From assembly GCF_001315985.1 (NCBI RefSeq), contig NZ_BBBI01000007.1, positions 1-64,000 on the forward strand: DNA of 64,000 bases, given 5' to 3'. Below the pieces are notes generated by a model. The model was not told where the DNA came from. It worked only from the letters and a program-made list of their open reading frames with translations, and did not search any database. The stretch's first letter is position 1; each line of letters opens with the position of its first letter. Source of the DNA: Vulcanisaeta distributa JCM 11216 (GTDB taxonomy: Archaea > Thermoproteota > Thermoprotei > Thermoproteales > Thermocladiaceae). Of this stretch, positions 844-64,000 are shown in pieces. The position numbers and the translations under genes are program-made.

Positions 844-1345
844 GACTTGGGTCTGGAGCACATGGGTTAAGGCTAGCAGGTTAAGGGGGGGCGCTGACGT
901 TGCGATAGTCGCTGCTTGCCTACCCTTCGTAAACCCGAAACTCTATCAAGAGATTTCGAAGAATAAGGTAGTGCTGCTCGCCTGTCCTGAGCGTGAGCAC
1001 TCGGCGCTTTACGGTAAAATAGCGAGCATGGTTCGATCGTCAAGGCCGAGGTCGATAATGATAGTCTCGATAGATGGTAGCCCACACTGTGCATTACTTC
1101 ACGCATCGGTCAACGAGGCTGAGTACATACTCAATGAGGACATACCCAGGAGACACTACGTGGTACTTGACGGCGAAGAGCTTAGAGAAATATCGCCGAA
1201 TGCCGTGAGAGTCGCTAGATACTTATCGATTGTTGAGGAGTTGATCAGGAAAAACCCCGAGGCACTCGAGGAGTTGGCAAAACATAGCCTTGAATATAGG
1301 AGTAGCCTCGCCAGGACTGGTAAAGGCGATGCATCAAGGACCTAA
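836..1345 (+). CDS. Conserved hypothetical protein with cysteine motifs, next to thiC
   Basis: I do not recognise a named family. The ATG at 836 overlaps the thiC stop, so the two genes are probably co-transcribed; a start a few codons upstream is possible. The protein is about 170 residues, soluble and without membrane segments. Cysteines sit in [16 protein letters not shown] and SPHCALLH, each after a hydrophobic strand, which could form a metal or Fe-S site. The C-terminal third is helical and charged. The overlap with thiC suggests a link to thiamine synthesis or to the ThiC cluster, but this is inference only. A 7-G run near 882 adds one glycine in RLRGGADV. Confidence 0.6.
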
Positions 1346-1350
1346 TGGTG

Positions 1351-1755
1351 CTATTTCACAATACTTCTTGCAAGTTTTACCAAGTCCTCCACGTATCCTA
1401 TATCCTCCCTAATCTGCCTCGCTTCAACCTTGCCTCATGGAATCCTTCCATATGCAGAAACCACGCCCTACCCCCCCACCAAAGCCTAACCTCCCCTATT
1501 GGGCTTGCTACTTATTGAGCTCACGGCGTCGAATAGCAACGTTGTTGTTTACCTCCCTGGGCCTAGGGCTATGGCCATCGCCTTGATGGCCTCCTCGGCG
1601 GCCTTGTAGAGCTTCTCGCTTGCCTGCACGGGGGGGTCCCTACTGACCAATTCAACGCCCTCCCTCAGGAACCTCTCGGCAAGCTCAAGGTGAACCTTAG
1701 ACCGTTCACTTTTAGGTTTAATACCTTTGATATTATGTCAATACCCCCTCTTCAT
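1351..1755 (-). pseudogene. PaREP1-family gene, frame broken
   Basis: On the minus strand the pieces LELAERFLREGVELV, ASEKLYKAAEEAIKAMAIALG, AWFLHMEGFHEA and VEDLVKLARSIVK lie in family order but in at least three frames. This is the repeat-associated PaREP1 family (HEPN-like helical proteins) found in many copies in Thermoproteales. The run near 1630 makes DPVQASEK read as DPPVQASEK. A one-base loss lies near 1397 and another break near 1560. The start is uncertain because the ATG near 1755 does not join cleanly. It may be a live gene spoiled by sequence errors or a decayed copy. A second family member lies at 17299-17784. Confidence 0.6.
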
Positions 1756-1853
1756 GGTCTCATTAATTAAGCTCTTAGGTATTGACGTTGTCGAAATCAC
1801 TCTACACTCAGTATAAAGCCTTACTTAAAAAGTAGTTTGTGCTTTAATTAGTG

Positions 1854-2944
1854 CTAAACGGGATAGAGTGGAACATGTTCTAGTGCGGTTGTTTCGGGGG
1901 GGAAGCCTAGGGCCACGTTCATTGCCTGCACTGCCTGTCCTGACGCGCCCTTCATTAGGTTGTCTATTGCGGCTAGGATCACAAGCCTGTTTAACCTATT
2001 GTCTATTTCGAAGCCTATGTCAACCAGGTTCGACCCTATCACGTACTTAACGTCCGGATACCTCTGAAAGCCTGCTCTATCCTTAACAATCCTGATGAAT
2101 GGTTCATTACTGTACATGGCCCTAATGGCTTCCACACGTCTGGCTCCTGCACAGATTTCGTTAACCACGCGTGTGCCGTGGTTAGTATCCCCCCCCTGAC
2201 TAGGTCTACGGCGTGTGGGGTGAATGCTACGCGTACCTGCTTATTAATTAGTAGGCTTAGTTCCTGCTCTATTTCTGCCGTGTGCCTGTGGTGAACAACC
2301 TCGTAGGGCCTAATCACGTATGTCCTGAAGGGGGTGTAGGTCGAGCCTGGGCGCGTGTGCGCCGGCGCCTGAGCTCGATATCTTCGCATCAACCACAATC
2401 CTCTCAGTATCCACGAGACCAGCCTTCACCATAGGTGCTAGGGATATTATGGCTGCGGTTGCCATGCACCCAGGCACGGCTATTAACTTGGCGTTTCTTA
2501 ATTCCTCCCTATGTAACTCGGGAAGCCCATAAACGGCCTTCTTAAGTAGGTCTGGGTATGGGTGTGGCTTCTCCCACCCGTACCACTCAACGTAGGCATT
2601 TGGGTCCTTAAGCCTGAAGTCCGCGGATAGGTCAATCACGGTTAGTCCAGCCTCGTAGAGCTTTGGAACCCACTCAATACTCTGCCATGTGGCAGCGCCA
2701 GGAATACTACGTCAACCTCCTTTTTGAGTATGGCGTCAATCGTGGAGTCACTGAAAGTTAGGTTTGTCCTGCCCCCCCTAAGGTTTGGGTGAACCCTAAA
2801 TATGTACTCGCCCTTAAACTCCCTCGAGGTTGCGCAGGCAAGTTCAATACCCGGGTGGTTAAGCAATAACCTAAGTAACTCACCGCCGGTGACCCCCCCG
2901 CTGGCCCCCCCTACGACGCATGCCTTGTACTTACCACTCACCAT
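1854..2944 (-). CDS. lysY: [LysW]-aminoadipate/glutamate-6-phosphate reductase (LysY/ArgC), frame broken
   Basis: NADPH-dependent reductase of the ArgC family that turns the LysW-bound acyl phosphate into the semialdehyde. Visible parts are an N-terminal nucleotide fold (SGKYKACVVG then TGGELLRLLLNHPG), VIDLSADFRL, the active-site cysteine in AVPGCMATAA and the C-terminal PETTALEHVPLYPV. The pieces are 2642-2944, 2310-2639, 2039-2398 and 1854-2168. Breaks lie near 2640, 2330 and 2180. The paired 7-base runs at 2893-2912 turn GASGVTGG into GGASGGVTGG. The ATG at 2944 overlaps the end of the upstream LysX-like gene by 14 bases, which indicates one operon. Its role in both lysine and arginine synthesis is inferred from the single LysY in the window. 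Confidence 0.9.
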
Positions 2945-3677
2945 TGAACCACCTCGCTATTGTGTTCACCACGTTATTCACGACATCCATTGTTAATTCA
3001 ATCCTGGGTTCTACACCAAGGATTAGGTGCTCATTACCATAGGCGCCTATTGTGTACGTACACATAATGCACCCAATGTTCCTTGAAAGCTTCAAAACCC
3101 AGGGCTTTAGGTCGCCGCAACCAATACACTCATCACCGATGACTTGCACGTTAATGATTTTGTCTGGCGCCTTAATAACCATGTTAATTCTGGCCAGCGG
3201 ATTAGCCATGTACATCCTATGCTCAGCCACTGATTTACCACCTTCCCACGTGGTTACTAAACCATCGAGACTTAACGCCGGTGATGGTGTAGCCAAGTAA
3301 GCCCTGCCAAGCCCCCCCCTAATTACCTTACCAACCACGTTGGGATTTAACGCAACACTTATCTCGGGCGTTGGGTAACCCAGCCTGGAGAGTTCCCTAA
3401 ACAGTGCGGCTCTGTTAATAGCTAGCACGTAGGCGCCACGTGGATTTAACGTATCCTCAAACAAGCTGGATATTACGAGGGCCTCAAAGGTATCATCGAG
3501 GAGCAGCACAGCCTTGCTATTCCCGCGTTTCACTTCATCATCTCTAGTATTTATTATGGTAACCCTGAAGCCCCTATTTACTAGATCATTGTGTATTTTC
3601 TGCTCTACTGGACCGTACTTACTGAGTACAAGCGTGATGTCTTGGTTGACCGTGGTTCCTGCTTCAATGACCACCAC
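2931..3677 (-). CDS. Divergent LysX-like protein with two CxxC motifs
   Basis: This intact 248-residue protein starts at a GTG. The N-terminal half resembles LysX/ArgX: a strand-loop start, a helix with VEQKIHNDLVNRGFRV, and NRAALFRELSRLGYPTP, which matches the NK..TT..L..AG.P.P helix before the ATP-grasp core. The ATP-grasp core itself is not recognisable; the LysX ATP site (VKPVHGSWGR) is replaced by VGKVIRGGLGR and the metal-binding end is missing. Instead the C-terminal third has two CxxC motifs, ECIGCGD and GCIMCTY, that could bind zinc or an Fe-S cluster. It heads an operon with lysY. A regulatory or LysW-handling role is possible but unproven. Confidence 0.65.
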   Translation of the reverse strand: MVVIEAGTTVNQDITLVLSKYGPVEQKIHNDLVNRGFRVTIINTRDDEVKRGNSKAVLLLDDTFEALVISSLFEDTLNPRGAYVLAINRAALFRELSRLGYPTPEISVALNPNVVGKVIRGGLGRAYLATPSPALSLDGLVTTWEGGKSVAEHRMYMANPLARINMVIKAPDKIINVQVIGDECIGCGDLKPWVLKLSRNIGCIMCTYTIGAYGNEHLILGVEPRIELTMDVVNNVVNTIARWFNGEW

Positions 3678-3699
3678 CTGTGCTTACCGTAGCAATGAG

Positions 3700-3771
3700 A
3701 CTTTTAAATATTTTCTTTACTATTGCAGGGGTTATAAACGTGTTATTGTTAGTAAAGGAAATGTTTATATA
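3700..3771. promoter_or_regulatory. Divergent TATA boxes between the lysY and lysX operons
   Basis: A minus-strand TATA box (AATATTTAAAAG, 3701-3712) lies about 24-35 bases before the GTG at 3677. A plus-strand one (GTTTATATA, 3763-3771) lies about 30-38 bases before the lysX ATG at 3801. The spacing predicts almost leaderless mRNAs in both directions. Confidence 0.55.
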
Positions 3772-3800
3772 GTGTATTTAGTGGGTAACCTGTGGGAGTG

Positions 3801-4641
3801 ATGGAACGGTTTCCATACTTTATGACACAATGAGAATTGAGGAAAGGCTAATACTTAGGGAGCTTAGGGACCTTGGCGCCAACGTTGCTCTAGTGAATAT
3901 TGATAACATATCTCTTAACCTTAATGAGGGGGGGGTGATGACCTCGGCATAGTCCTCGTGAGGTCCATGAGCCATACGAAGGCGGGTTTAATTGCCCGTA
4001 TTCTAAACATCCAGGGTGTTAAGACTATTAATAAGGGACTGGCCATAGAGAATTCATGGAATAAGGCCATTGCCATCTCAACATTGGCTAAGGCAGGTAT
4101 ACCCACCGTCCCAACAAGGCTCTTACTATCGGTGGATACGCAGTATGATGGTGTTAATTATCCGGCCATTGTTAAGCCTGTCCACGGTTCCTGGGGGGGA
4201 AGACTCGTAAGCCTAGTGGGCAATCACGATGAGTTAGTACTGTTGCTTAGGCATAAGGCCGTGGGTGATGCCTACTCAAAGATTGCCATGATTCAGCCAT
4301 TCATTGGCGATGGTACTGACTACAGAGTCTTTATAATTGGTGATGAGGTGGTTGCGTCGATGGTTAGGAAACCAAGCCCAGGTGATTGGAGGAGTAACGT
4401 TGCCAGGGGTGGGGTTGCTCACGCACTCAAGCTTAGTGCAGACGCTTATGAAATTGCCATTAAGGCCGTGAAGGCCCTTGACCTTGATTACGCAGGCGTC
4501 GACCTACTATATAGCAATGAGACTGGTTACATGGTTAATGAGGTCAACGCAATACCTGAGTTTAAGGGCCTCATGAGCGTCTCGGGCATTAATATTGCGC
4601 GTAAAATAGCTGAGTATGTGATAAATACTGCCAGGAGGTGA
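3801..4641 (+). CDS. lysX: LysW ligase LysX (ATP-grasp), frame broken near the 5' end
   Basis: ATP-grasp ligase joining aminoadipate (or glutamate) to the C-terminal Glu of LysW. The ATG at 3801 fits the TATA box. One missing A near 3805 would give METVSILYDTM, the usual LysX start, then EERLILRELRDLG. A second break sits at the 8-G run near 3925. From 3958 the frame is open: RSMSHTKA, NSWNKAIAISTLAKAGIPTVPT, IVKPVHGSWGGRLVSLVG, VFIIGDEVVASM, DLDYAGVDLL and EVNAIPEFKG (metal-binding Glu and Asn). The run at 4193-4199 inserts a Gly in the invariant SWGR. Substrate choice between this and the copy at 8345-9214 cannot be settled by eye. Confidence 0.88.
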
Positions 4642-4648
4642 TCACTCA

Positions 4649-5828
4649 ATGAGCAATGACCTACTTAGGTTTGAGGATGAGTACCTGGCTAGGTACTACA
4701 GCAAGAAGACCATAAACATTGTCAAGGGCTACATGCAGTATGTTTGGGACTCAAACAATAATAAGTACCTGGACATGCACACGGGCTTTGGCGTTGCATT
4801 CCTCGGCCATAGGAATCCAAGGATCATAAACGCCATCAAGGACCAACTTGATAAAATAATCACGGTACCACTGACCTTCTATAACGAGACGAGGGCCGAG
4901 TTCATTAGGGAGTTCATGAGGGTCGTACCGAGTAGTTTCGGCAAGGTATTCCTACAGAATAGCGGTACCGAGGCCGTGGAGGTCGCCCTTAAGATAGCGA
5001 GGAAAATTACTAAAAAGGCTGAGTTCCTGGCATTCCTGAACTCATTCCATGGCAGGACGATGGGTTCCCTCTCGGTAACCGGTAATGAGAAGTATAGGAG
5101 GGCCTTCGAACCAATGCCGTATAAGGTCAGGTTCGCACCATTCAACGTGGTTGACCAGGTGGATAAGTTGGTGACTGAGGATTTAGCAGCTGTGATTGTT
5201 GAGCCAATACAGGGCGAGGGCGGTGTTAACCCAGCAAGGCCTGAGTTCCTAAGGGCCCTTAGGCAGGTGACGAGGGAGAGGAATGTGTTGCTTATATTTG
5301 ATGAGGTCCAGACCGGGTTTGGCAGGACTGGGCGTGTTTGGGCCTTTGAGAATTACGGCGTAGAGCCTGACATATTCACAGCGGGTAAGTCAATAGCCGG
5401 TGGGTTACCAATCGGAGTGGCAGTCGTTAGGAGGGAGTTCGGTGACGTTTTCGAACCTGGGGAGCACGGTAGTACCTTCGCAGGTAATCCACTCGTTATG
5501 GCTGCGGCTAGGGCAGGGGGTTGAGGTCCTGGTTAATGAGGATGTGCCTGATAGGGCGAGGGCTATGGGTGATAAGTTAATGAGGATACTAGAGGATGAG
5601 TTTAATGGCTTGAAAACAGTCTTGAGAATTAAGGGCATGGGACTTATGATGGGTATTGAACTTAAGAAGAGGGCTGATCCGTACATTGATAAATTAATGA
5701 GTGCTGGACTACTGGCGAGTGTTGCTGGTGGGACTACCGTGAGGTTACTACCACCTTACTGCATAACTGATGATGATTTAGAGACAGCGGTTAGGGCTCT
5801 TAGGTCTGTCCTGTCAGACTCATCATGA
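4649..5828 (+). CDS. lysJ: LysW-aminoadipate/glutamate semialdehyde aminotransferase (LysJ/ArgD), frame broken
   Basis: Class III PLP aminotransferase that aminates the LysW-bound semialdehyde. Motifs in order are MHTGFGVAFLGH, QNSGTEAVEVALKIARK, FHGRTMGSLSVTG, EPIQGEGGV, FDEVQTGFGRTG, TAGKSIAGGLPIG (PLP lysine in AGKS) and GSTFAGNPL. The ATG at 4649 follows GGAGGTGATC, a good ribosome-binding site, 7 bases after lysX ends. The frame changes at a G run near 5516; the 3' part continues VLVNEDVPDRAR to LRLL-type residues and ends at 5828. The 3' end overlaps the converging homocitrate-synthase-like gene by 29 bases. Length of about 390 residues is normal. Confidence 0.9.
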
Positions 5829-7186
5829 TGTCATTAAGTATGTTATTCAATTCCTCATCACCTAACGGCTCCCTCCTTAAGCCATTATCGTAAAGATGCA
5901 TGATCCTCTTATAGACCGCATCAATGAGTTGCGGTGTTGGTTCTATACCACGCTTCTTTAGCCAGTACTCTATCGATGACCTGCCTGAGTACGGCCCAAC
6001 CAATATATTCGCCTCGCGACCAATTACGGTGGGATCCATTGATAGATACGTCATTGGATTCTTCAGTTGAGCATCGACGTGTATACCCGCTGCTGTTGTA
6101 AAGGCATTCTCGCCAACCAGTGGTTGATACCTCGGCACTGGGTAATTAAGACTTCGGAATTCCTCGGCTATCTTACTAATCACCCTGGGATTCATTCCAT
6201 CAAAGGAACCCCCCCTAAGCCTGGCATACCAAATTACCAAGGCCTCTATGGCACATTACCAGCCCTTTCTCCAATGCCCAATAGCGTTCCATTGTTTATG
6301 GACGCACCGTAAAGCCAGGCAGCGACTGCGTTGGGTACTGCCATGTAGTAATCGCCATGACCATGGAACTCCAGGGACTCGCTGGGTATTCCCAACACCT
6401 TCCTAAGGACCCACACGAGCTTTGGTACGCTATAGGGCAGTGGCGCGAATGGGTAGGGTACGCCAACGCCTGTTGTGTCTGGTAGCTTTATCGTGATCTC
6501 AACGCCATACCTCTCCCCCAAGCTTAAGTAGCTTCTCCACAAAGGGTATTACAAAGCCGACCACGTCAGACCTGGTCACGTCCTCAAGGGAGCACCTAAG
6601 CCTAATACCCTCCCTCAACGCGTACTCCGCAACCTCTAGGTACTTAGCCACGACTCTATCCCTCGTGGAATTGAACTTATACCTAATGTGTATGTCAGAT
6701 ATCGACATTAACATAACCATTTCATCAAGGCCTGCCTCCTTAACGAGCCTCACATCCTCAACCCTAGCCCTGCCCCCCCCAACCAATTACCCTGGGCCAT
6801 TCAAGGCCTAAGTCCCTAACTGCCTTAACAAGCTCTCTATCCCTACCAGTGTATAGGAAGAATTCGCTCCTAATTATTTTGCCGCTTCCATTATCTAAAT
6901 CAGCCAATAACCTAAACAATTTAACAGCATCATTTATTGAGTAATAAACGTAGAAGGCTTGTTGCCCATCCCTAAACGTCGTGTCGGTTATGAATAAGCG
7001 CCCAGGTGGTTCTGGATCGATATTAATCCCATCAGTTATTAACCTAGGCGGTAAGGGCCATTGATTAAGATCAGCATACTCCAACTCCTTGTACTCAATA
7101 CCCTCGTGCTTCAATAGTCGTATTAACGACTCATTATTTTCCCGGGCTAGTGAACCCTGGTTGTTAAGTGCTTCAATTAGAACCAC
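5800..7186 (-). CDS. Homocitrate synthase-like enzyme (isopropylmalate synthase family), frame broken
   Basis: A TIM-barrel acyltransferase that condenses acetyl-CoA with a 2-oxoacid. Visible motifs are DTTFRDGQQ (catalytic Arg and metal Asp), the IKLPDTTG strand, FHGHGDY (metal His pair) and GIGERAGN. The pieces are 6764-7255, 6499-6786, 6246-6542 and 5800-6240, with breaks near 6775, 6525 and 6245. The start is set at GTG 7186, which lies 25-34 bases after a TATA box; upstream codons are not needed. Among lys genes the natural role is homocitrate synthase, the first step of the aminoadipate route, but isopropylmalate, citramalate or Re-citrate synthase are alternatives. The first 45 residues look like a LysX N-terminus (see findings). 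Confidence 0.75.
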
Positions 7187-7210
7187 CCAGGTTTTTCGTA
7201 AAATAAATAA

Positions 7211-7220
7211 TTTATAAATT
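7211..7220 (-). promoter_or_regulatory. TATA box of the homocitrate synthase-like gene
   Basis: The minus strand reads AATTTATAAA, 25-34 bases upstream of the GTG at 7186. It lies between lysK and this gene, so the gene has its own promoter although it follows lysK on the same strand. Confidence 0.5.
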
Positions 7221-7257
7221 TTACCCCCTAATAATAAATATGGCTTAAAAAACAATA

Positions 7258-8348
7258 CTATTTATAAATATTCATAAATTCAACTATCGCCTGCTTATAT
7301 ATATCTATGGCCCTAAGGTAATCCTCAACAAATATGTATTCCTCAAACGAGTGTGAGTACGCTCCATCGCCAGGCCCATACGCAACCATGTTCTTTGTCA
7401 ATAATGCCAGGTCATTCATATCACTTGTACCCCATTTCCTGGCCGGGGGGGTGGGTCCCTTACCTAATACCTTAATTATTGCCCTAGACACTGCCCTAGC
7501 GCTTGTATTATTGATTGAAACCTCGACGGGTTCAGTGCACCACCTCATGTTTATGGTGATTAATCCTCCATACTTACCCAGTAACTCATTAATTCCCGCC
7601 TCAACATCCTTACATGATTTCCCAGGTGGTATCCTAACGTCGAGTATCAGCTGCAGTTACTTGGTATCATGTTCTCGGCCTCGCCGCAGTTCATTATTGT
7701 TGGCGTCACGAGAAAGTTCTCGTAGGATGTACCAGCCATTAACGTATTCCACAAATCCCTGTACACATTCATTGCAATGAGTATGGAGTTAGAGCCCAGG
7801 TCTGGATTTGATGCATGGCCGCCCCCCCTAGTCCTCACATTAACCTCAAGCCTAGTACCGCCCCCCCTGTACTTGACAACCACCTTATCAATCCCCCCCG
7901 TAGGCTCACCAACAATAATACCCGTGGGCCTCGGCACGTGATTACCACTTATCAAATACCTAGTGCCTAGGCTATCACCCTCCTCATGTACGACGGCCGT
8001 AAGCACGAGAGTTCCTCTACTCAATTCGCTCTCCATGAATGCCAGCAACATGGCCATTAACGGGCCCTTATCATCGCTGGCCCCCCTACCAATGATTTTA
8101 TTACCCTCACGCCTAACCTCTATGAAGCCAGGCACCGTATCCATGTGAGCATGAAGCCATAGGACGGGCTCTCCATCACCCTTAATGGCGATTACATTAC
8201 CAACCTCGTCAATTCTAGCCTCAAAACCATTCATAATTAGTAATTCCGTAAGGAATTCCGCCAACTCATGCTCATCACCCGTGGGTGAGTAAATGTTCAG
8301 GGCCTCCATGAGTAATTTTAACTTGGCCTCGTCACTGAACATCGTCAA
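7258..8348 (-). CDS. lysK: LysW-lysine/ornithine hydrolase LysK (M20 peptidase), frame broken
   Basis: Zinc peptidase of the M20/DapE family that frees lysine or ornithine from LysW. Visible motifs are SPTGDEHELAEFL, WLHAHMDTVPG (metal His and catalytic Asp), GRGASDDKGPL (bridging Asp), VVHEEGDSLG (catalytic Glu pair), IVGEPTG and the C-terminal block with KWGTSDMN and AYGPGDGAYSH. The two main pieces are 7647-8348 and 7258-7548, with the break between about 7550 and 7650. Runs near 7822, 7862 and 7894 add glycines. The ATG overlaps the stop of the upstream lysX/argX copy (8345-8348), a sign of translational coupling. Confidence 0.92.
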
Positions 8349-54531: not shown

Positions 54532-56163
54532 ATGCCCATTGACTTCAGGGATTGGTCCTCAGGCGCAATAACGACGCTTGAGATGAGGGTCATTGATAGG
54601 AATGCCGTCTACATGGGCATTGATAGGCACATACTCATGGAGAACGCAGGTAGGTCTGTGGCAACGGTAGTCATTGAGAGGTACCCAAAGGCCAGGAGGA
54701 TACTCGTTGTTGCTGGGCTTGGTGATAATGGTGGTGATGGTATTGTGGCTGCTAGGTACCTACACTCATGGGGGGGTAGGGAGGTCAAGGTTGTTCTCCT
54801 GGGACGCATTAGTGATGCCAGGGAGGAATTGGTTGTGGATAACCTGGGTATTCTTAGGGGGGGGTTGAATGTTGAGATAATAGAGGCTCCAACACCCTAC
54901 GACTTACTCGCTCATCAGGAGGTCTTTCACCCATGGGCTGAGGTTATAATTGACGCAATCATAGGAACTGGGATTAGGGGGGGTGTTCTTAGGGAGCCGC
55001 AGGCAACGGCTATTGAGTTAATCAATAAGTCATCGGCGTATAAGGTAGCTGTTGACATACCCAGTGGGTTGGACCCCCCCGACACCGGCGAGGTTAGGGA
55101 TATCGCTGTTAAGGCCCACGTTACCGTAACAATGCACAGGCCTAAGGTTGGCTTGGTTAAGGAGGGTGTTTCCCAATATGTCGGTGATTTGGTGATTGCG
55201 GATATCGGGATTTCTGAGGAGATAGAGCACATCGTCGGTCCCGGCGACCTATACTACATGAGCTATGCCAGAAGGCCCGACTCTAAGAAGGGTGATAATG
55301 GGCGTGTATTATTCATTGGTGGTTCCAGGGAGTTCACGGGCGCCATTTACTTAGCGGCTAAGGCGGCACTTAGGACTGGGGGGGTCGACCTGTCAGTGGT
55401 TATGGCTCCCAGGGATGTGGCCAGGGACATAAGGGCTCACGATCCAAGCATAATAGCTATACCCCCCCTAGACGGTGATTACCTAATGCTTAGTCATGTG
55501 GATCAAATAATGGAGCAGGTTGGTAAGTCCCATGTAATAGCTATTGGGCCTGGGCTTGGGCTTAGGGAGGAGACTATGAGAGCAGTTGTTGAGTTGATCT
55601 CTAGGGCTGTTGATGTTGGTAAGAGGGTGGTCATTGATGCTGACGCCATTAAGGCAATTGGTGAGTTGAAGAGGCAGGACTTAATAACGAAGAATGTAAT
55701 TGTAACGCCGCACGCCGGCGAATTTAAGTGGTTGACAGGCGTGGATGTTACTAAGGAGGTTAACACCTGGTCGAGGGCCTTGATGGTGCGTGATGTGGTT
55801 AAATCATCACTGAGGGGCGGTGTTGTGTTGCTTAAGGGTAATGTTGACATAATAACCGATGGCGAGAGGTACAAGCTCAACTTCACGGGTAATCCGGGTA
55901 TGACTATTGGAGGCACTGGGGGGGATGTGTTGACTGGCGTTGTTTCGGCATTAATGGTTAAGGTCCAGGACCCACTTGAGGCAGCTGCAATTAGTGCCTT
56001 CGTGACGGGGCTCGCAGGTGATTTAGCAGTTAAAGATCTCGGCTATCACATATTACCAACTGACGTTATAGATAACATACCTAAGGTATTCAGGAGTTTG
56101 ATGAACATTGATGATATTGTTAGATCATCGATTCATCCACAGGCCTTAAAGCTAATTGGTTAG
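54532..56163 (+). CDS. nnr: Bifunctional NAD(P)H-hydrate repair enzyme Nnr, intact
   Basis: 543 residues. The N-terminal epimerase domain has MENAGRSVATVV, VVAGLGDNGGDGIVAARYLH, AIIGTGIRGG and VDIPSGLDPPDTGEV. The C-terminal ADP-dependent dehydratase domain has SKKGDNGRVLFIGGSREFTGA, IGPGLGLREET, VIDADAIKA, VTPHAGEFKWLTG and FTGNPGMTIGGTGGDVLTG with the catalytic Asp. Both domains are needed to repair damaged, hydrated NADH and NADPH. Seven-base runs add Gly or Pro but keep the frame. It starts right beside the divergent hypothetical gene. Confidence 0.95.
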   Translation: MPIDFRDWSSGAITTLEMRVIDRNAVYMGIDRHILMENAGRSVATVVIERYPKARRILVVAGLGDNGGDGIVAARYLHSWGGREVKVVLLGRISDAREELVVDNLGILRGGLNVEIIEAPTPYDLLAHQEVFHPWAEVIIDAIIGTGIRGGVLREPQATAIELINKSSAYKVAVDIPSGLDPPDTGEVRDIAVKAHVTVTMHRPKVGLVKEGVSQYVGDLVIADIGISEEIEHIVGPGDLYYMSYARRPDSKKGDNGRVLFIGGSREFTGAIYLAAKAALRTGGVDLSVVMAPRDVARDIRAHDPSIIAIPPLDGDYLMLSHVDQIMEQVGKSHVIAIGPGLGLREETMRAVVELISRAVDVGKRVVIDADAIKAIGELKRQDLITKNVIVTPHAGEFKWLTGVDVTKEVNTWSRALMVRDVVKSSLRGGVVLLKGNVDIITDGERYKLNFTGNPGMTIGGTGGDVLTGVVSALMVKVQDPLEAAAISAFVTGLAGDLAVKDLGYHILPTDVIDNIPKVFRSLMNIDDIVRSSIHPQALKLIG

Positions 56164-56259
56164 GCAATTAATTATCAGTAGCCTGGAAGATCATCAATTA
56201 CTGATCAGGGTCCACCATAGTCATCATTAACATTCAAAGGAACTATGAATTAATTAAGT

Positions 56260-56550
56260 TTATTCTAATGGCATGTGTACTATCCTCCTACTCCGTGTTG
56301 AATATCTACGCCCGCCTCTCTCGCGGGACCTCCTAATGTCTAAAGCTACGTCCAATGGATTATAGGTGATTGTTACGTTAACAACATCATCGTTTGCACA
56401 GGCAACAATATGCATTTTAGGGTTGTTAATTAATATTACCTCACAATTATAGTTCAAGCTATGATACTCATTGCCGTTATAATCACCTATTAATTGTTTC
56501 TTAAGTGCCATCCATAACGTTTTACTTATTACTATTGTTTCCCTAATCAT
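56260..56550 (-). CDS. Small hypothetical protein
   Basis: 96 residues, not recognised. It starts MIRETIVISKTLWMALKKQL, has a short strand pair around EVILINNPKMHIVACANDD and VVNVTITYNPLDVAL, and ends in an Arg-rich tail RRSRERGGRRYSTRSRRIVH. The basic tail suggests nucleic-acid contact. It lies alone between nnr and a membrane gene on the opposite strand. Confidence 0.45.
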   Translation of the reverse strand: MIRETIVISKTLWMALKKQLIGDYNGNEYHSLNYNCEVILINNPKMHIVACANDDVVNVTITYNPLDVALDIRRSRERGGRRYSTRSRRIVHMPLE

Positions 56551-56716
56551 TCTATTTAACTAATTCAACTCCAAATAAATAAAGGTTTCCTCACAGTAAT
56601 TCAAAAAACATGAATAGAGACTTGACTTTTATTTCCTCGATACAAACCGCGTTAAATACATCGTAGCCTGTAACGAATGCAATGCTTATTCCTAACTTAT
56701 AAAAGCAACGAGATGT

Positions 56717-57498
56717 ATGAGTAGCAAGTTAGTCAGTGGGAGGATTCATACGGACACTGGCGCATTATCACTATTAATAACTAATTATGCATTCTCCTTG
56801 ATTACCCTATTGTTGATCAATAAATACCACGTTAATATTATTAGATTAGTATTGACAACGGGTCTCGTTATATTAAATATCACAAGCCTTGTAAGAGCCC
56901 ACCTAGGCCTGATATCCAGGAGGGGGGGCTTAAGCGATTATTTACTGTTTCTAATAAACACGGCCCCCCTATTTGCTTCTCATCCCCCTACCTAGGTATT
57001 TGGGTAATAATACCCTTAATACCCCTGGCTTTATTTATGGCAGAGGTAATGCGTGGGAGAGGTAGGTCGGTAATGGCTAATGTGTCTGGGACTGCATTAA
57101 TAGCATCAACGTATCTTGCATGGTATACTCTCATGGGTGGTATTTTGATTAATCTATTTGTGGCTGTGTCGATAGTATGGGTTACCTACCATGCATTTTC
57201 TGCATTATATGTGGAGGGCAGGTTGCCGTTTAGGCGGGGGGGTGTTAAGCCGTACCACTCATCAATGCTTTGGTTTATAAGCTTACCTGCCCTAGCCTAT
57301 GGGCTGTACATCACTAGCGGTACACTGTCTCTGGCGGTATTGATTGAGCCATCGCTTAGGGCGTTAATTGCCATTAAAGAGGATAAGTTATCCATGGGTG
57401 ATTTAAGACGTAGGATTAGGGAAATTGGTATTGGCCTATTAATTGAGTCTTTGGTACTGGCCACCCTGGTCTTGATTCTTATTTATGCATTGGCGTGA
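56717..57498 (+). CDS. Multi-pass membrane protein, one frame break
   Basis: About 255 residues with around seven hydrophobic stretches: NYAFSLITLLLINKY, IIRLVLTTGLVILNITSLV, DYLLFLINTAPL, the join near 56990 to WVIIPLIPLALFMAEVM, GTALIASTYLAWYTLMGG, NLFVAVSIVWVTYHAF, WFISLPALAYGLYI and LLIESLVLATLVLILIYALA. The central loop has RFRRGGV-like RLPFRRGGVKPYHSS. No transporter or enzyme motif is clear. Runs near 56923, 56963 and 57237 sit in it; the 56963 run probably causes the break. Confidence 0.55.
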
Positions 57499-57722
57499 TC
57501 ATTAACGGGAAGTATTGTGTTCATGAATTCAGCTACCTTATATGCGGTATTTTGATGAATGTAATAATTGCTATGTGGGTGTAAGCTGTGTATTTCATGG
57601 ATACATTTCATAAACGGGATTGAGCCCTATGTTAGTACTAGAGTTAAATGGGTTTACTCAGTAGTTATGGTATTGTGACTTATAGAGAAATAGTTATAAG
57701 GACATAAGTAGTAATAGGTCTA

Positions 57723-59607
57723 ATGGTACCGAGTACTTCAGATGAGGTTGAACGGCTTTTCCGAAGTAAGATGAGTGATGAAATGTATCGAAGACTAATG
57801 AACATTAATAACCCTGAGCTTCACAAGTTCATAGCCTGGGCCGTAGACCTATGCAAGCCTGATTCCGTGTTTATAAACACAGGTAGTCCTGAAGATTTTG
57901 ATTACATTAGGAGAAAGGCAATAGAGACTGGTGAGGAGATAATGTTGAAAACCCCTGGTCATACCGTTCACTTTGATAGTCCTTACGACCAGGCCAGGGC
58001 CCGTGAGGACACGGCCATATTATTGCCTAATGGTCAGAAGCTTCCCTTCATAAGGACTAAGGACCGTGATGAGGGATTGAAAGAAATTTACTCACTACTT
58101 AACGGTATAATGAAGGGTAGGGAAATGCTCATTGGTTTCTACTCACTTGGGCCCAAGGGCTCGCCCTTCAGTATATTGGCTGTTCAAATAACGGATTCCT
58201 ACTACGTAATGCATAATGAGAACATACTATATAGGGCTGCCTATGACGAGTTCGTCAGGCAGGGTGAGAGGGCTAGGTTCCTCAAGTTCCTTCATTCACA
58301 GGGTGAGTTGAACGAGATGAAGCAGAGTAAGAACATTAAGCAGAGGAGGATTTACATAGACCTTCCTGGCGAGACTGTGTATTCAGTGAACACGCAATAC
58401 GGCGGTAACAGTATTGGTCTCAAGAAACTGGCCCTTAGGCTCACGATTAAGAGGGCCATGGAGGAGGGATGGCTTAGCGAGCACATGTTCCTGATAGGCG
58501 TTGAGGGGGCCAAATGGCAGGGTCACTTACTTCACCGGCGCATTTCCGTCATACTCAGGCAAGACGTCAACGGCAATGCTCGGTAGGTTAATCGGGGATG
58601 ACCTCGCATTCCTAAGGAATGTCAATGGCGAGGTTAGGGCGGTTAACCCAGAAATAGGCGTCTTCGGGATAATCGAGGGCATAAACCCAATCGATGATCC
58701 ATTAATATACGAAGTGCTGACAAAGCCCAATGAGATAATATTCTCGAACGTGCTAATTACCGAGGATGGCGAAATATACTGGAATGGGATGGGTAAGCCA
58801 GAGCCTGAGAAGGGCATTAACTACACGGGTAAGTGGTGGAGGGGGGGAAAAACCGATGAGAAGGGTAACCCAATACCACCATCACACCCCAACGCCAGAT
58901 TCACGGTATCACTAAAGGCATTTAAGAACCTGGACCCTGCCTATGACGATCCAAGCGGTGTTGTTGTTGGTGGAATAATATTTGGAGGTAGGGACCCTGA
59001 CACGCTTGTTCCCGTCTTTGAGTCCTTCAATTGGGAGCACGGCGTAGTCACGATAGCCGCATCCCTCGAGTCGGAGAGGACTGCGGCAGTAATCGGTAAG
59101 CCGGGCGAGAGGGAGTTTAACCCAATGGCCAACCTAGACTTCCTATCCGTGGACTTAGGCGTTTACATAACGAATTACCTGAAGTTTGGCGAGGGCCTTA
59201 CGAGACCTCCAAAGATATTCGGTGTTAATTACTTCCTTAGGGATGAGCAGGGCAGGTTCCTGAATAGTAAGGAGGATAAGAGGGTTTGGCTTCAGTGGAT
59301 GGAGAGGAGGGTTCATAACGAGCTTAACGCCATAACAACGCCCATAGGCTACATACCGAGGTATGAAGACCTAAAGGTCCTGTTCAGGGAGGTGCTCAAT
59401 AGGGATTATAGGCTTGAGGACTACACGAAGCAATTCGCGATAAGGGCTACGAAACTCCTCGAGAAGATAGACAGGATTTGGAAGATATACTCAGAAATAC
59501 CTACGACGCCGAGGAGGTTCTTCGAAGTACTTGAGGAGCAGAGACAGAGGCTGCTGGATGCCAGGAGTAAGTACGGTGACGTAATACCACCGCAGAGGTT
59601 TGAGTGA
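57723..59607 (+). CDS. pckG: GTP-type phosphoenolpyruvate carboxykinase, frame broken
   Basis: Converts oxaloacetate to PEP with GTP, for gluconeogenesis. Starts [21 protein letters not shown]. It has [53 protein letters not shown], then after a break near 58520 [18 protein letters not shown] (P-loop), [31 protein letters not shown] and RHEAD-type [13 protein letters not shown]. Length of about 628 residues is normal for the GTP-type enzyme. With pyk and enolase in the window, central carbon flow is well represented. Confidence 0.93.
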
Positions 59608-59616
59608 ATTTGGCAA

Positions 59617-60715
59617 TCAATCTTCCTTGTTCAAAATCATTAATTTATATTGAGAACCACTGAGTCTAATGGCAGTATCTATTATCTGTAACTCGCTCTT
59701 TGTGGCTAACGTCACCGCGCGGCCGCTCCTATCAAACCTTGCGGTTCTGCCTATTCTATGAATATATGTCTCCGGGTTACTTGGTACATCGAAATTAATT
59801 ATTAACCCCACATCAACTATGTCTAAACCCCTGGAGGCTAAGTCGGTAGCTACTAGGACTACGTCTCCATTCTCATCCCTAAACCTCCTTAGTACTCTCT
59901 CCCTCATGTACTGCTTCATGCCACCATGAAGCAACAATGCATGGTAATCCCGGGACAACTGCCTATACATCTATACGCCCTCTCCCTAGTATTTGCAAAG
60001 ACTATGGATTTACCCGCCAACTCCTTCGTCATGACTCCATACTTCTCCCTCCAAAAGCCATTAATCAAGTATACGACCTGGTCCACAAGCGGCAACTCAT
60101 ACTCGTGGTTACCCGTCCTTAGAAAGACAGGATTCCTCATAATACTACGTAACAATTCATAGATTTCCCTAGGCAGAGTCGCGGTGGCGGCATAAGTCTG
60201 CTTTCTATTATGCGCCAGGCTTGATATAACACGAACATCATCTATGAAGCCCATATCCAACATTCTATCCACTTCATCAATAACGAAGTAATTAACACGA
60301 CCCAAATCAATGTAGGACTTCCTCACTAGATCCAGTAATCGCCCAGCGTCGCCACAACAAGGGATGCGTCCCTTACAGAACTTATTTGGTCGTCATAAGG
60401 CACACCGCCATAAACAATGGCATGCTTAAACCCAAGGTACTTATTGAAGTAGGTAAATTGTGAAGCAACCTGAAGCGCTAATTCACGGGTTGGCACGATT
60501 ATTAGGGATTCCGTAACCTTACCAACCATGGAGTTCATTATGGGCAGTAGATAAGCCGCGGTCTTACCACTACCCGTTCGGGCCTGCATGGCAATATCAA
60601 CACCCTCTAAAGCCTTCGGTATGACTAAGCTCTGGATCTCTGTGGGTTTCTTAAATCCAACATCGGCCAGGGCCTTCCTAAGTTCCTCTCTTAGTTCGTC
60701 AAATACCTCGTTCAT
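59617..60715 (-). CDS. DEAD-box RNA helicase, frame broken
   Basis: ATG 60715. Motifs: GFKKPTEIQSLVIPKAL (Q motif), ARTGSGKTAAYLLP (I), VPTRELALQVA (Ia), YGGVPYDDQ, after a break near 60330 the DEVD form of motif II in FVIDEVDRMLDMGF, ATATLP in place of SAT for motif III, VFANTRERAYR (IV), then after another break near 59950 VATDLASRGLDIVDV (V) and HRIGRTARF (VI). Two Rec domains, about 365 residues. It probably unwinds short RNA duplexes in ribosome assembly or decay. The DEVD box is an accepted variant. Confidence 0.88.
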
Positions 60716-60844
60716 TCAGCACCAATAAACTGGGCATTAATAAAACGGAGCCTAAGCAAGCATTCCCTCCTAATTGCTGGAGATGGCTCTATGAATTGGT
60801 GCAGTAAATATTATTAGGTAGGTAATGAAATAATATTGGCATAA

Positions 60845-61206
60845 ATGGCGTCACGATGGTACGCAAGGGCTGAGCGATATAAGGCATTGAGTAAGGACAT
60901 GCTTAATAGGGGGGGTTCTACCCAGAGACATGCTTTTTTGCGCAGCAGGCTGTTGAATTTTACCTTAAGGGTAAGCTCATAGAGTTAACGGGCTCGAGAT
61001 TATATACGTATTCAATAGTCACGCTGTTAAATCAAGTGGTCTCAATACTTAATAGGCCCATTAACAATGATCTCATTAAGTGCGCTAAACTCCTCACTGA
61101 GCAGTACATAGGGTCTAGATACCCTGATGCCCGTATGATTGATTATGATAAGGATGATGCTGAGGATTGCCTCAGGTGCATGGAGATTGTGATGAATTAT
61201 GTTTAG
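60845..61206 (+). CDS. HEPN-domain toxin-like protein, frame broken
   Basis: About 120 residues. ATG 60845 gives ASRWYARAERYKALSKDML; a 7-G run near 60908-60914 shifts the frame, after which it continues YPETCFFAQQAVEFYLKGKL (the HEPN helix with the AQQA...E..KG core), SRLYTYSIVTLLNQV and the C-terminal YPDARMIDYDKDDAEDCLRCM. HEPN proteins in pairs with minimal nucleotidyltransferases are toxin-antitoxin modules; the nuclease Arg-x4-His is not clearly seen, so it may be a non-toxic or AMPylated partner. The stop overlaps the next gene's start. Confidence 0.75.
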
Positions 61207-61576
61207 GGAAATCCTCCTAAGAATGCATCGCGAAATCGAGGAGTGGATAAGAGAGCTATGTAGTGAGGGTTACACGGTCATATTATTTGGTTCGAGAGCA
61301 CGTGGCGAGGCTAGGATAGACAGTGACTGGGACCTGCTCATCATAGGCAATGAACCACCCACCGAGCCACCAAATGACCTAGCCCAGGTACATTACGCCA
61401 ACGCTCTAGCGGCTGAAAGGGAAATTGAGAACTTCAACACAATATTCCTCGACGCACTCTACGAAGGTAAGCTATTATGCGGTGACGCAGTGATGTTCAA
61501 TAAATTGAGAAATAAAGTCCTTAACGTGACCAGGGATTTCGTAAAGACGAAGGACGGATGGATAAGAATAAGGTAA
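61199..61576 (+). CDS. Minimal nucleotidyltransferase (MNT antitoxin-like)
   Basis: 125 residues, intact. The nucleotidyltransferase signature is VILFGSRARGEARIDSDWDLLI, i.e. GS-x3-G followed by two Asp in DSDWD. ATG 61199 overlaps the HEPN stop, so the two are coupled. In HEPN/MNT modules the nucleotidyltransferase acts as antitoxin, often by AMPylating the HEPN toxin. The C-terminal half is helical with EREIENFNTIFLDALYEGK. Confidence 0.85.
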   Translation: MFREILLRMHREIEEWIRELCSEGYTVILFGSRARGEARIDSDWDLLIIGNEPPTEPPNDLAQVHYANALAAEREIENFNTIFLDALYEGKLLCGDAVMFNKLRNKVLNVTRDFVKTKDGWIRIR

Positions 61577-61583
61577 TAGAAAC

Positions 61584-61616
61584 TGGCGGACTCAGTGGGA
61601 TTTGAATCCACGATCT
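61584..61616 (-). pseudogene. tRNA 3'-end fragment (T arm, acceptor strand and CCA)
   Basis: On the minus strand AGATC, then T arm GTGGATTCAAATCCCAC (61595-61611), acceptor strand TGAGTCC (61588-61594), G and an encoded CCA (61584-61587). The first T-stem pair next to the loop is A-C instead of G-C. No matching 5' half (GGACTCA) lies upstream within several hundred bases, and the low GC is unlike tRNA-Lys nearby. Likely an integration-site remnant, or a 3' half of a split tRNA as known in Caldivirga. Confidence 0.55.
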
Positions 61617-61838
61617 ATAGCTTATCGTAGAACTTATTTCATCATTACTTACAGGTTTACAAGTGGAAAAGAATTAGTATTCCTTAAGTGCGTCTATATA
61701 TCCTTTCATGCCTTAAGCTTTAATAATATAAAAGATTTCATGTTTATTTAGTGATTTTGTTTCATTAAATAATTCTATTTTTCTACTTAGAGTGTTTAAA
61801 TTATTAATAAAAGCTTTAGTCATGCTCTGAAATATTTT

Positions 61839-62255
61839 ATGCCATGTCTTAATCATAAGTCCTCACAGGGTCAGGTTAAAAAGCTTATTCGAGAATTTAG
61901 TATTGGTATGAGCCTTATTAAGGAATTAACGCGGGAGCCTACTATTGATTTAGTTAGGTTCATTATTGCGTATTATATTAAAAAATATAATAGGGGTGTT
62001 AAAGCAGAGGTACTTGTTAAGCTCTTATTCCTAGTTCTATATACGGATGAGAAGGGACTTATTGATTCACCAAGGGTGAGGTTGCCTGAGGAATTTAGGA
62101 TCTACTTAAAGGGCCCATTTGTACCAATTGATAGGTTACTTGGCGGTGAGTTAGAAATGTCTAAGTATGGTATTGCTAAGGTTGGTGATAGTTATTACAT
62201 TAACGTGAACGCCCTTGAGGATGCCTATAGGTCCCTTGAGAAGAGGGGGGGTTGA
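61839..62255 (+). CDS. Unrecognised first gene of a three-gene PIN operon
   Basis: 138 residues. Soluble and helical: VKKLIREFSIGMSLIKELTRE, then VLVKLLFLVLYTDEKGL and YLKGPFVPIDRLLGGEL, and a strand end KVGDSYYINVNALED. The block KLLFLV plus KGPFVPIDRLL loosely recalls the Panacea/SocA antitoxin domain, which I cannot confirm. The ATG at 61839 lies after an AT-rich gap with TTTAATAATA boxes. Its stop overlaps the next start (TTGA). It could be the antitoxin or sensor of the set. Confidence 0.5.
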   Translation: MPCLNHKSSQGQVKKLIREFSIGMSLIKELTREPTIDLVRFIIAYYIKKYNRGVKAEVLVKLLFLVLYTDEKGLIDSPRVRLPEEFRIYLKGPFVPIDRLLGGELEMSKYGIAKVGDSYYINVNALEDAYRSLEKRGG

Positions 62256-62491
62256 AAGATCTGGCAGATTACGCCATGAGGGTTGTTGATAAGTATGGTG
62301 CGTTGAGGGAGGAGGTCTTGATTAACCTAACTCTCGAAATACTAGGTATTAAGAACGAGGTTATCAAGGCAATGGCCTTTAACATGGACTTGGAATCCTT
62401 CATAAAAGCCATGAAGAAGCTCAGGGAGATACTAATGAGTAGGGAATATACTGACGAGGAGGAACTCTACCCAGACTTATTTAGTGGGTGA
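62252..62491 (+). CDS. Second gene of the PIN operon, small helical protein
   Basis: 79 residues from TTG 62252, which shares bases with the upstream stop. It is helical: KDLADYAMRVVDKYGALREE, VLINLTLEILGIKNEV, DLESFIKAMKKLREILMS, and an acidic tail EEELYPDLFSG. No motif. It may be an adaptor or antitoxin for the PIN gene that follows, whose GTG start overlaps its stop. The three genes share overlapping ends, implying fixed stoichiometry. Confidence 0.45.
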   Translation: MKDLADYAMRVVDKYGALREEVLINLTLEILGIKNEVIKAMAFNMDLESFIKAMKKLREILMSREYTDEEELYPDLFSG

Positions 62492-62495
62492 CTTC

Positions 62496-63179
62496 ATGGT
62501 ATTTAGGGCATTCCACGTTTTTGTCGACACTAGCGTGCTCGTTAAAATAATATACGCAATAACTCTATATCACAAAGTAAGCGTTTCAAAGAGACCACCA
62601 CGGATTCTTGGCATGCTTGAGAATGGGATCCTAACTATTTATACCGATAATGCTGTGATAAATGAGCTTAAAGACACAGCTCTACCTAACCTATTAAGCA
62701 ACGTCAATAGGACAGAGCATGGATGGCCCAATATAAAGCCTGACATAATGATACTGTACTGTATTGATGAATTGAATTATTTAGTAAGTAGAAACTATAT
62801 AAGGATTGCCGAGGAGGATAGGTCGTTAGAAAAACAAAGGAGGGCCTTAGGGAATAGGCCCACAAGGAGGGTTTGTTGGAGGGATGGTCTAATAGACGAT
62901 ATATTAAGTAGGGTCCCGCCTGAGATGGTTCCATTTGAGGATATTAGTATAATTAGCTCATTACTCTATGCCTATGACTTACTGGCCACAGTACCAAGAA
63001 GGGCATTATCCGGTATAACAAAGGGCAAGTTAGTATTTATTACTGACGACAATAAGCTTAAACAATTCGTAGAAACATACTTAACATGCAATAATTGTCC
63101 CTGCCGGGAGAAAATAATTACCTTAAGTTATAAGGACTTCAAAGATAAATTGCTAAAGTCCTTCCTAGGAGCACAATAA
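62496..63179 (+). CDS. PIN-like nuclease, third gene of the operon
   Basis: About 227 residues from ATG 62496 (an in-frame GTG at 62484 overlaps the upstream stop). PIN-type acidic sites: VFVDTSVLVKI (Asp), VINELKDTA (Glu), FEDISIISSLLYAYDL (Asp) and VFITDDNKLKQFVE (Asp pair). Longer than a VapC toxin (about 130 residues) by an inserted helical, basic segment around RSLEKQRRALGNRPTRRVCW. The cysteines NNCPCRE near the end are unusual. RNA cleavage is inferred from fold only. Confidence 0.6.
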   Translation: MVFRAFHVFVDTSVLVKIIYAITLYHKVSVSKRPPRILGMLENGILTIYTDNAVINELKDTALPNLLSNVNRTEHGWPNIKPDIMILYCIDELNYLVSRNYIRIAEEDRSLEKQRRALGNRPTRRVCWRDGLIDDILSRVPPEMVPFEDISIISSLLYAYDLLATVPRRALSGITKGKLVFITDDNKLKQFVETYLTCNNCPCREKIITLSYKDFKDKLLKSFLGAQ

Positions 63180-63424
63180 ATAGATACATAATAATTGAAA
63201 TATCAGGTCTAAAGCTCCTCATGTTCTGATGGCTGTAATATCTAATGAATGCTTTGCACCCAGCAGAAGAAGTTATTTTTAGGAAAAATGCGTTATGTTA
63301 CTTAAATCGTTAAGGTACAAAGCCTGCAATCAACGCATCATAAACCTAACATGGAGTTATCTACGAATTTCCAAACATGAGGAAAATAAGCAACAGTATA
63401 ATTAAGAGAGATTGTATATAAATT

Positions 63425-63501
63425 TGGCGGGCCCGGTGGGATTCGAACCCACGACCTATGGGTTAAAAGCCCACCGCTCTACCTGGCTGAGCTACGGGCC
63501 C
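63425..63501 (-). tRNA. tRNA-Lys (anticodon TTT), with encoded CCA
   Basis: Reads GGGCCCGTAGCTCAGCCAGG from 63501, with acceptor stem GGGCCCG/CGGGCCC, anticodon stem and loop GGGCTTTTAACCC giving anticodon TTT, T arm GTGGGTTCGAATCCCAC, discriminator G and a genome-encoded CCA. No intron is seen. All stems are complete. Confidence 0.95.
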
Positions 63502-63554
63502 GTATTCATTAATTATTTGTACTTTTAAGGTTTTATGTTGCCTTAGTTTTTTAA

Positions 63555-63920
63555 TTGCGGTATTTTTATTATGCTGTGTCTTCGATTGTTGATGTTAGGC
63601 TTGGTGATTACCATGGTGAGTGGGTTTTGGATAGTGGTGTTGTTAGGTATGTTGAGCATATGGGTGGTGATGTTATTGAGGCCGAACTTGAGGGCTGTGG
63701 TGAGGATTACACCGATTGTGTTATTGACGATGTCGTTAAGAGATTTGGTGATGAGCTTAAGCTCCCAAGGTCTGTTCTTGGTTCGGTGAGGGCTAGGCTT
63801 AAGGCCCTTGGTTTCCCATTGGTGATTACGCTGCGTGAGGAGGTTAATGTCTCAATTGTTGAGTTCAGGGGTAAGAACGGCAATGCCCAATTGATTATTC
63901 GCTATCAACTTATTTCCTGA
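63555..63920 (+). CDS. Hypothetical soluble protein
   Basis: 121 residues from TTG 63555; a GTG at 63576 is an alternative. TTTTAAGG about 30 bases upstream is a possible TATA element. Not recognised. It has a beta-rich start VDVRLGDYHGEWVLDSG, an acidic centre GGDVIEAELEGCGEDY with DCVIDDVVKRFG, and ends VNVSIVEFRGKNGNAQLIIRY. The last 11 bases overlap the converging membrane gene. Confidence 0.5.
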   Translation: MRYFYYAVSSIVDVRLGDYHGEWVLDSGVVRYVEHMGGDVIEAELEGCGEDYTDCVIDDVVKRFGDELKLPRSVLGSVRARLKALGFPLVITLREEVNVSIVEFRGKNGNAQLIIRYQLIS

Positions 63921-64000
63921 GGAGGATTACCCTGAGCACCGCGTATAGTATGAATGCGACTATGAATATTACAAGGGCCAATAGCGCTATTCCGCCGAGT
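63910..64000 (-). CDS. C-terminal end of a membrane protein, cut by the window edge
   Basis: The minus frame reads LGGIALLALVIFIVAFILYA then VLRVILLRK and stops at 63910-63912. This is one hydrophobic helix with a basic tail, typical of a membrane protein's last segment. The rest lies past the window end, so no function is given. Confidence 0.6.
   Translation of the reverse strand, partial: LGGIALLALVIFIVAFILYAVLRVILLRK

Follow-up and report, generated by a model that had tools for sequence, protein, structure and literature searches.

The locus lies in the 64,000-nucleotide stretch of DNA that was analysed here (the window), taken from a 2.42-Mb archaeal assembly of 65 contigs with an estimated completeness of 67.75%. 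Three overlapping open reading frames were found on its forward strand: ORF1 (61839-62255, 138 amino acids), which contains the motifs KLLFLV and KGPFVPIDRLL; ORF2 (62252-62491, 79 amino acids); and ORF3 (62484-63179, 231 amino acids when read from a GTG at 62484), which encodes a PIN-like DTS motif. The initial annotation had described these overlapping frames and the two motifs of ORF1, and all of them are present in the sequence. Relatives were sought in a first set of 101 genomes that includes the source genome (G000), whose family also includes Caldivirga, and in a wider set of 398 Thermoproteota genomes.

Comparison with relatives indicated that the locus encodes two genes. Wherever the relatives' upstream gene is complete, it is a single open reading frame of 187-210 amino acids spanning both ORF1 and ORF2 (gene A), and the two parts are continuous in nine other loci. 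In the window, the first part (61908-62251, forward strand) corresponds to the N-terminal half of this protein, as indicated by alignment with intact relatives and by a match to a Panacea profile, and the second part (62252-62491, forward strand) to its C-terminal half. A profile of the fused protein matched the window in two pieces, at model positions 3-119 and 116-197. In the alignment, relatives read ...YRALEKRGLKDLADYAMRIID... through the junction; the window reads ...YRSLEKRGG and a stop, then LKDLADYAMRVVD. The proposal that the three frames form a new three-component system has in its favour that three open frames exist in the sequence as read. Against it, all relatives have two genes, and alignment places the middle "protein" on the C-terminal half of their first protein, right after the point where ORF1 ends; we consider this proposal scarcely credible. 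Three separate genes were rejected on the basis of the single fused frame upstream of the PIN gene in relatives. A three-gene system with a chaperone or sensor also lacks support, since the 79-residue product forms the C-terminal half of one and the same Panacea-like protein.

The break in the frame of gene A falls at a run of seven G residues (62245-62251), where the window reads GAGAAGA-GGGGGGG-TTGAAA. Relatives have a shorter run and are in one frame with AGGGGACTG or similar; restoring their frame in the window needs two fewer bases, or one more. Similar breaks were found nearby. The PEPCK gene (57723-59607) has one extra G at 58505 compared with G007, G003 and G002 and reads as two overlapping frames, and the gene for a DEAD-box helicase (59617-60715) lacks a base at about 59967 and another at 60346 compared with G003 and G002. 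This amounts to three frame-breaking single-nucleotide indels in about 3 kb of the two genes, mostly in short homopolymers. A non-coding run at 60909 has seven G residues in the window and five in G002. Across the source genome, open reading frames are shorter, with a length-weighted mean of 245-254 amino acids versus 323 in a complete genome of the same genus. Because the same type of error occurs in PEPCK, in the helicase gene and in the run at 60909, and because frames are short genome-wide, the break in gene A is likely a sequencing or homopolymer assembly error. Gene A is probably intact in the organism and split in the assembly only. Other "split" genes in the window merit the same suspicion as these two neighbours.

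A real strain mutation or a phase-variable G tract, leaving a decaying module with a split and inactive Panacea protein, was also considered. Long G runs are easily mutated in cells too, and pseudogenes of the A/B family are common in relatives. This explanation is nevertheless unlikely in the face of the nearby single-nucleotide breaks, the non-coding G run two residues longer than in G002 and the short frames genome-wide; in addition, the long G tract is absent from aligned relatives, and the other one-sided losses affect the PIN gene. A genuine frameshift would leave an intact toxin together with a broken antitoxin in one cell, which would count against a toxin-antitoxin reading. Programmed frameshifting was rejected, as the aligned relatives have a single frame without a slippery run.

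The likely true start of gene A is at 61908 (ATGAGC, encoding MSLIKEL), downstream of the first ATG at 61839. A TTAAAAA element on the forward strand (61876-61882) lies 32 nucleotides upstream of this start, and in alignments the same element precedes the gene A start by 32, 33 and 36 nucleotides in G010, G007 and G004, respectively. We infer that it is an archaeal TATA-like promoter with a near-leaderless start.

Single-sequence Pfam searches did not find a Panacea domain in the window gene A protein, did not match Panacea (PF13274) at E values up to 5 in six close homologues of A, and returned nothing in the source genome. A profile built from the six close homologues found distant ones in Thermoproteota, including the protein of locus L065, which matched SocA_Panacea in Pfam with an E value of 1.4e-4 and 23.1 bits, below the cut-off of 25.7. 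A wider profile including L065 recruited proteins in 30 of the 398 Thermoproteota genomes; SocA_Panacea was matched by nine of ten recruits tested, eight of them above the cut-off. As a guard against circularity, ten Panacea proteins with L065 left out (seven above the cut-off, the rest their relatives) were compared with the close A homologues alone. The two alignments matched over 148 columns with an hhalign probability of 96.7 and an E value of 3.6e-10, which supports the resemblance to Panacea suspected for the first protein in the initial annotation; the unrelated PIN alignment, used as a control, gave a probability of 0.2. In a repeat run, the real score was 74 versus at most 20 for column-shuffled versions. 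The Panacea profile also matched all six close homologues, at E values between 4.6e-11 and 2.2e-4, and ORF1 of the window at 2.7e-6, where the best shuffle reached 0.024; the match extended across the frameshift.

An AlphaFold model of a gene A relative, of fair quality (pLDDT 78, pTM 0.76), consisted of helices and one beta hairpin; few sequences were available as input (4-5 for the models of A and B). A Foldseek search with this model returned no significant PDB match, and a sequence search of the PDB found no relevant relative for the A or the B protein. By profile comparison, the product of gene A is clearly a divergent Panacea (SocA/DUF4065) homologue that lies below single-sequence Pfam detection. 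A second, very divergent A-like frame was observed elsewhere in the source genome (L138:387-950, contig G000:C23), with an E value of 3.9e-7 against the wide profile.

Gene B (62496-63179, forward strand) encodes a predicted PIN-like nuclease of 227 amino acids, with the GTG at 62484 as an in-frame alternative start upstream. In six full-length close homologues, D11, E55, D142, D154 and D178 (G010 numbering) are invariant; the counterparts in the window protein are the likely catalytic acids D11, E57, D149 and D185, together with the also invariant D161. The initial annotation had let its reading of this protein depend on the conservation of acidic residues, and these residues are invariant. 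It had also mentioned a "long basic insert" and a Cys pair, which was partly right: the six full-length close homologues share four cysteines (C125, C191, C194 and C196, G010 numbering), which the distant homologue L063 does not conserve. Pfam with single sequences did not call gene B a PIN protein above the cut-off, and PIN_3 matched four of six homologues with a best E value of 0.0036, below the cut-off. When compared with a profile built from canonical PIN proteins of the source genome and its relatives, gene B gave a score of 26.8 and a probability of 22, compared with at most 18.1 for shuffled versions. The AlphaFold model of the window protein had a pLDDT of 66, and its best Foldseek match was the PIN domain 3ix7 (probability 0.89, E 0.083), a weak match. 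Taken with the model, the comparisons indicate that the product of gene B is a probable, not proven, divergent PIN-like nuclease.

Assignment to VapBC was rejected, since the size of B (227 amino acids) and its Panacea-like partner do not fit and Pfam detected no RHH, AbrB or Phd domain. The pair resembles VapBC in having a PIN-like nuclease with conserved acids and an antitoxin gene placed first. It differs in that gene B encodes about 215-230 amino acids versus about 130-150 for the PIN proteins of VapBC, with weak PIN similarity only, and in that the partner is Panacea-like and not a ribbon-helix-helix, AbrB or Phd DNA-binding antitoxin.

The PIN protein search of the 101 genomes returned matches in nine, the source genome included. 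In the wider set, 9 of the 398 genomes had homologues of the gene B type, in every case adjacent to A, and the pair recurs across Thermoproteales. All full loci have A and B adjacent, in the order A then B, with the genes overlapping or nearly touching. The neighbourhood survey suggested in the initial annotation found A and B linked wherever the family occurs; the two frames beside the PIN gene, which might have been unrelated to it, are one gene linked to it. More distantly, the arrangement recurs in a second taxonomic class, where G368, G465 and G462 each have an A-like gene with a related PIN-like gene after it; the two PIN groups are themselves only weakly linked, with an E value of 0.012 for a set of about 1000.

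Five loci have a broken B and a whole A (G004, G021, two copies in G025, and G462), some of them in draft genomes. In G004, a 2-kb insert with a TnpB-like gene interrupts the PIN gene. One copy in G038 has both genes broken, and a broken A with a whole B was seen only in the error-prone window. As far as sequence can tell, the gene order, the overlap or close contact of the genes and the one-sided loss of the PIN gene in this small number of loci fit a type II toxin-antitoxin system. Alternatively, gene B might encode a PIN enzyme for RNA processing or repair, whose regulatory partner would be A and which would not act as a toxin; its product exceeds the length of a typical VapC, and four cysteines are conserved in its close homologues. 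We regard this as improbable, given the patchy distribution in 9 of 398 genomes, the horizontal mobility of the pair, the frequent inactivation of B while A is kept, and the tight pairing with a domain of the antitoxin type.

Other Panacea-like genes of Thermoproteota adjoin PD-(D/E)XK-like, RelE-like and other partners. Two PD-(D/E)XK-like families lie beside Panacea-like genes, one in L121, L124, L126 and L139, the other in L127, L128, L130 and L134; they were judged by their IEVK / VEVKR motifs and are unannotated by Pfam. The RelE-like small protein was judged by eye. In L131, L132 and L133, Panacea-like genes of about 250 amino acids are followed by a family of 277-296 amino acids that starts with LYLDxxYxYAP and has Cys pairs, with no Pfam match in the one member tested. 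At L123:3018-4332, a divergent Panacea-like protein, which also weakly matches DarG in PADLOC, overlaps a PIN-like protein with a zinc-ribbon insert resembling that of NOB1.

In the window, the pair occupies an inserted islet (61625-63424) that holds only A and B and has a G+C content of 36.6%, compared with 46.5% for the window. The islet is bounded on the right by its integration target, a tRNA-Lys (TTT) gene on the reverse strand (63425-63501; detected by ARAGORN and scoring 76 bits with the Rfam tRNA model), and on the left by an attachment-site relic (61584-61624), where 41 bp from the 3' end of the tRNA recur as a displaced copy identical at 33 of 41 positions. The local match score of the relic was 25, versus at most 15 in shuffles. 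The insert between the tRNA gene and this copy is about 1.84 kb long. The relative G002, with 95% identical DNA, carries the corresponding empty site in one locus: window positions 54818-61624 align with its positions 1-6770, and positions 63425-63995 with 6730-7301, revealing an exact insertion with 41 bp duplicated. The tRNA-Lys sites of G007 and G008 are also empty, with overlaps of about 39 and 41 bp (about 38-41 across siblings). The empty site of G002 has one tRNA copy, to which the left relic can be aligned; the two share a T that is absent from the window tRNA, as expected if the relic is the host fragment that was displaced. The identity of the relic to the G002 tRNA (34/41) is only marginally higher than to the window tRNA (33/41). 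Directly to the left of the islet lies a pair of genes for a HEPN protein and an MNT-type nucleotidyltransferase (61036-61576), in which the HEPN frame looks truncated, with single-nucleotide insertions compared with G002.

By inspection of its reading frames, no integrase was found in the islet, which besides A and B contains only short frames, including those in its non-coding ends. The only integrase match in the source genome is on another contig. In G010 (locus L210), the distance from the 3' end of the same tRNA-Lys to an integrase gene is about 0.8 kb; integrase-bearing elements of the genus thus probably integrate at this tRNA gene.

Copies of the pair elsewhere also lie near tRNA genes. 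In G010 and G007, it is located beside tRNA-Gln, where a repeat matches at 19 of 21 positions with a score of 17, compared with shuffle maxima of 16 and 12. The tRNA-Gln site of G008 is without the pair, and those of G000, G002 and G003 gave no match to it. The G004 copy is 54 bp from tRNA-His, and a left-hand tRNA repeat was found neither for this copy nor for the Thermoproteus copy at tRNA-Ser. Hence the pair has integrated at tRNA-Lys; its integration at tRNA-Gln is supported by the short repeat, and for the remaining copies integration is only suggested, by proximity. The identity comparison establishes horizontal acquisition of the pair, because the PIN protein is only 59-60% identical to its nearest relatives versus 94% for PEPCK, and because the pair is absent from the 95% identical G002.

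Collectively, the data presented make it quite probable that A and B form a mobile two-gene module, antitoxin first, in which a Panacea protein is paired with a PIN-like toxin and which has been inserted at tRNA-Lys. Most likely, it is a type II toxin-antitoxin or defence pair that moves horizontally; the initial annotation had proposed a toxin-antitoxin or defence unit, which is still the best reading, as a Panacea-PIN pair rather than a three-gene set. From sequence and by analogy, we infer a nuclease activity, its neutralisation, a trigger and a means of mobility. Gene A would encode a divergent Panacea-domain antitoxin or sensor and gene B a PIN-like RNase toxin. By analogy with PanAT, the Panacea protein would most likely bind the PIN nuclease and keep it inactive. 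Loss of this hold, or the sensing by Panacea of a trigger such as stress or virus infection, would free the nuclease, which would then cleave cellular RNA and stop growth. The pair probably moves between Thermoproteales, and its form in the Vulcanisaeta-related host is the 1.84-kb insert at the tRNA-Lys 3' end. Insertion was probably carried out by a site-specific integrase absent from the islet, either supplied in trans or lost since.

The pair could instead be a virus-defence (abortive infection) unit, with Panacea as sensor and PIN as effector, rather than a stress or addiction toxin-antitoxin system. Its mobility, its patchy distribution and its position beside a HEPN/MNT pair at a tRNA integration site are in line with this, as are the nuclease-like partners of related Panacea proteins and the sensor role proposed for Panacea in passages of PMC10440598. 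However, no virus relatives of A or B, no phage relatives of A and no plasmid relatives of B were found, PADLOC and PHROGs returned nothing useful for either gene, with no defence-library match, and the pair has no direct link to a virus. Sequence cannot separate a defence unit from the toxin-antitoxin explanation that we prefer, and we rate its chances at somewhat less than even. A further suggestion, which is rather doubtful, is that a Panacea sensor-PIN effector pair is a minimal integrase-free satellite that enters different tRNA genes (Lys, Gln) via the integrases of other elements. If so, the two-gene defence or addiction cargo would itself be the mobile unit.

In passages of two publications (PMC8832971, PMC10440598), the Panacea protein of PanAT is described as binding the toxin directly or acting as a sensor, and the published Panacea survey as built with Pfam cut-offs, which A proteins of the window type fail. 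Like PanAT, the type II toxin-antitoxin pair proposed here consists of two adjacent co-directional genes for a Panacea-domain protein and a toxin-like partner, with partner swapping among relatives (nuclease-like, RelE-like and other partners in Thermoproteota) and a patchy, mobile distribution. Unlike PanAT, its Panacea domain has diverged too far for the Pfam model to detect it, its partner is a large PIN-like nuclease, and it sits in a tRNA-integrated islet of 1.84 kb. Panacea-toxin pairs are already known; in the main-text passages of both publications that were searched, a Panacea-PIN pair is not named. What is new is most likely a divergent Panacea with a PIN-like partner, as a variant of PanAT.

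The islet shares with crenarchaeal tRNA-integrated elements of the SSV or conjugative-plasmid type (PMC3718332, PMC6563490) the integration at a tRNA 3' end and the displaced host fragment at the far end, and its 41-bp duplication is within the 29-69 bp range of duplicated fragments in such elements (PMC6563490). It differs from them in that genes for an integrase, for replication or of viruses are absent. At 1.84 kb, it is also smaller than the smallest cryptic thaumarchaeal element that PMC6563490 names, which measures 2.6 kb and has an integrase.

These results would extend the Panacea antitoxin domain to divergent archaeal proteins that fall below the Pfam cut-off of the published set and have a PIN-like partner. 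The small, thermostable pair may offer a means to ask how unrelated toxins can be held in check by a single domain. The exact tRNA insertion and the empty sites indicate that such a pair moves as a block of only 1.84 kb, and they make the question of what moves the islet a testable one.
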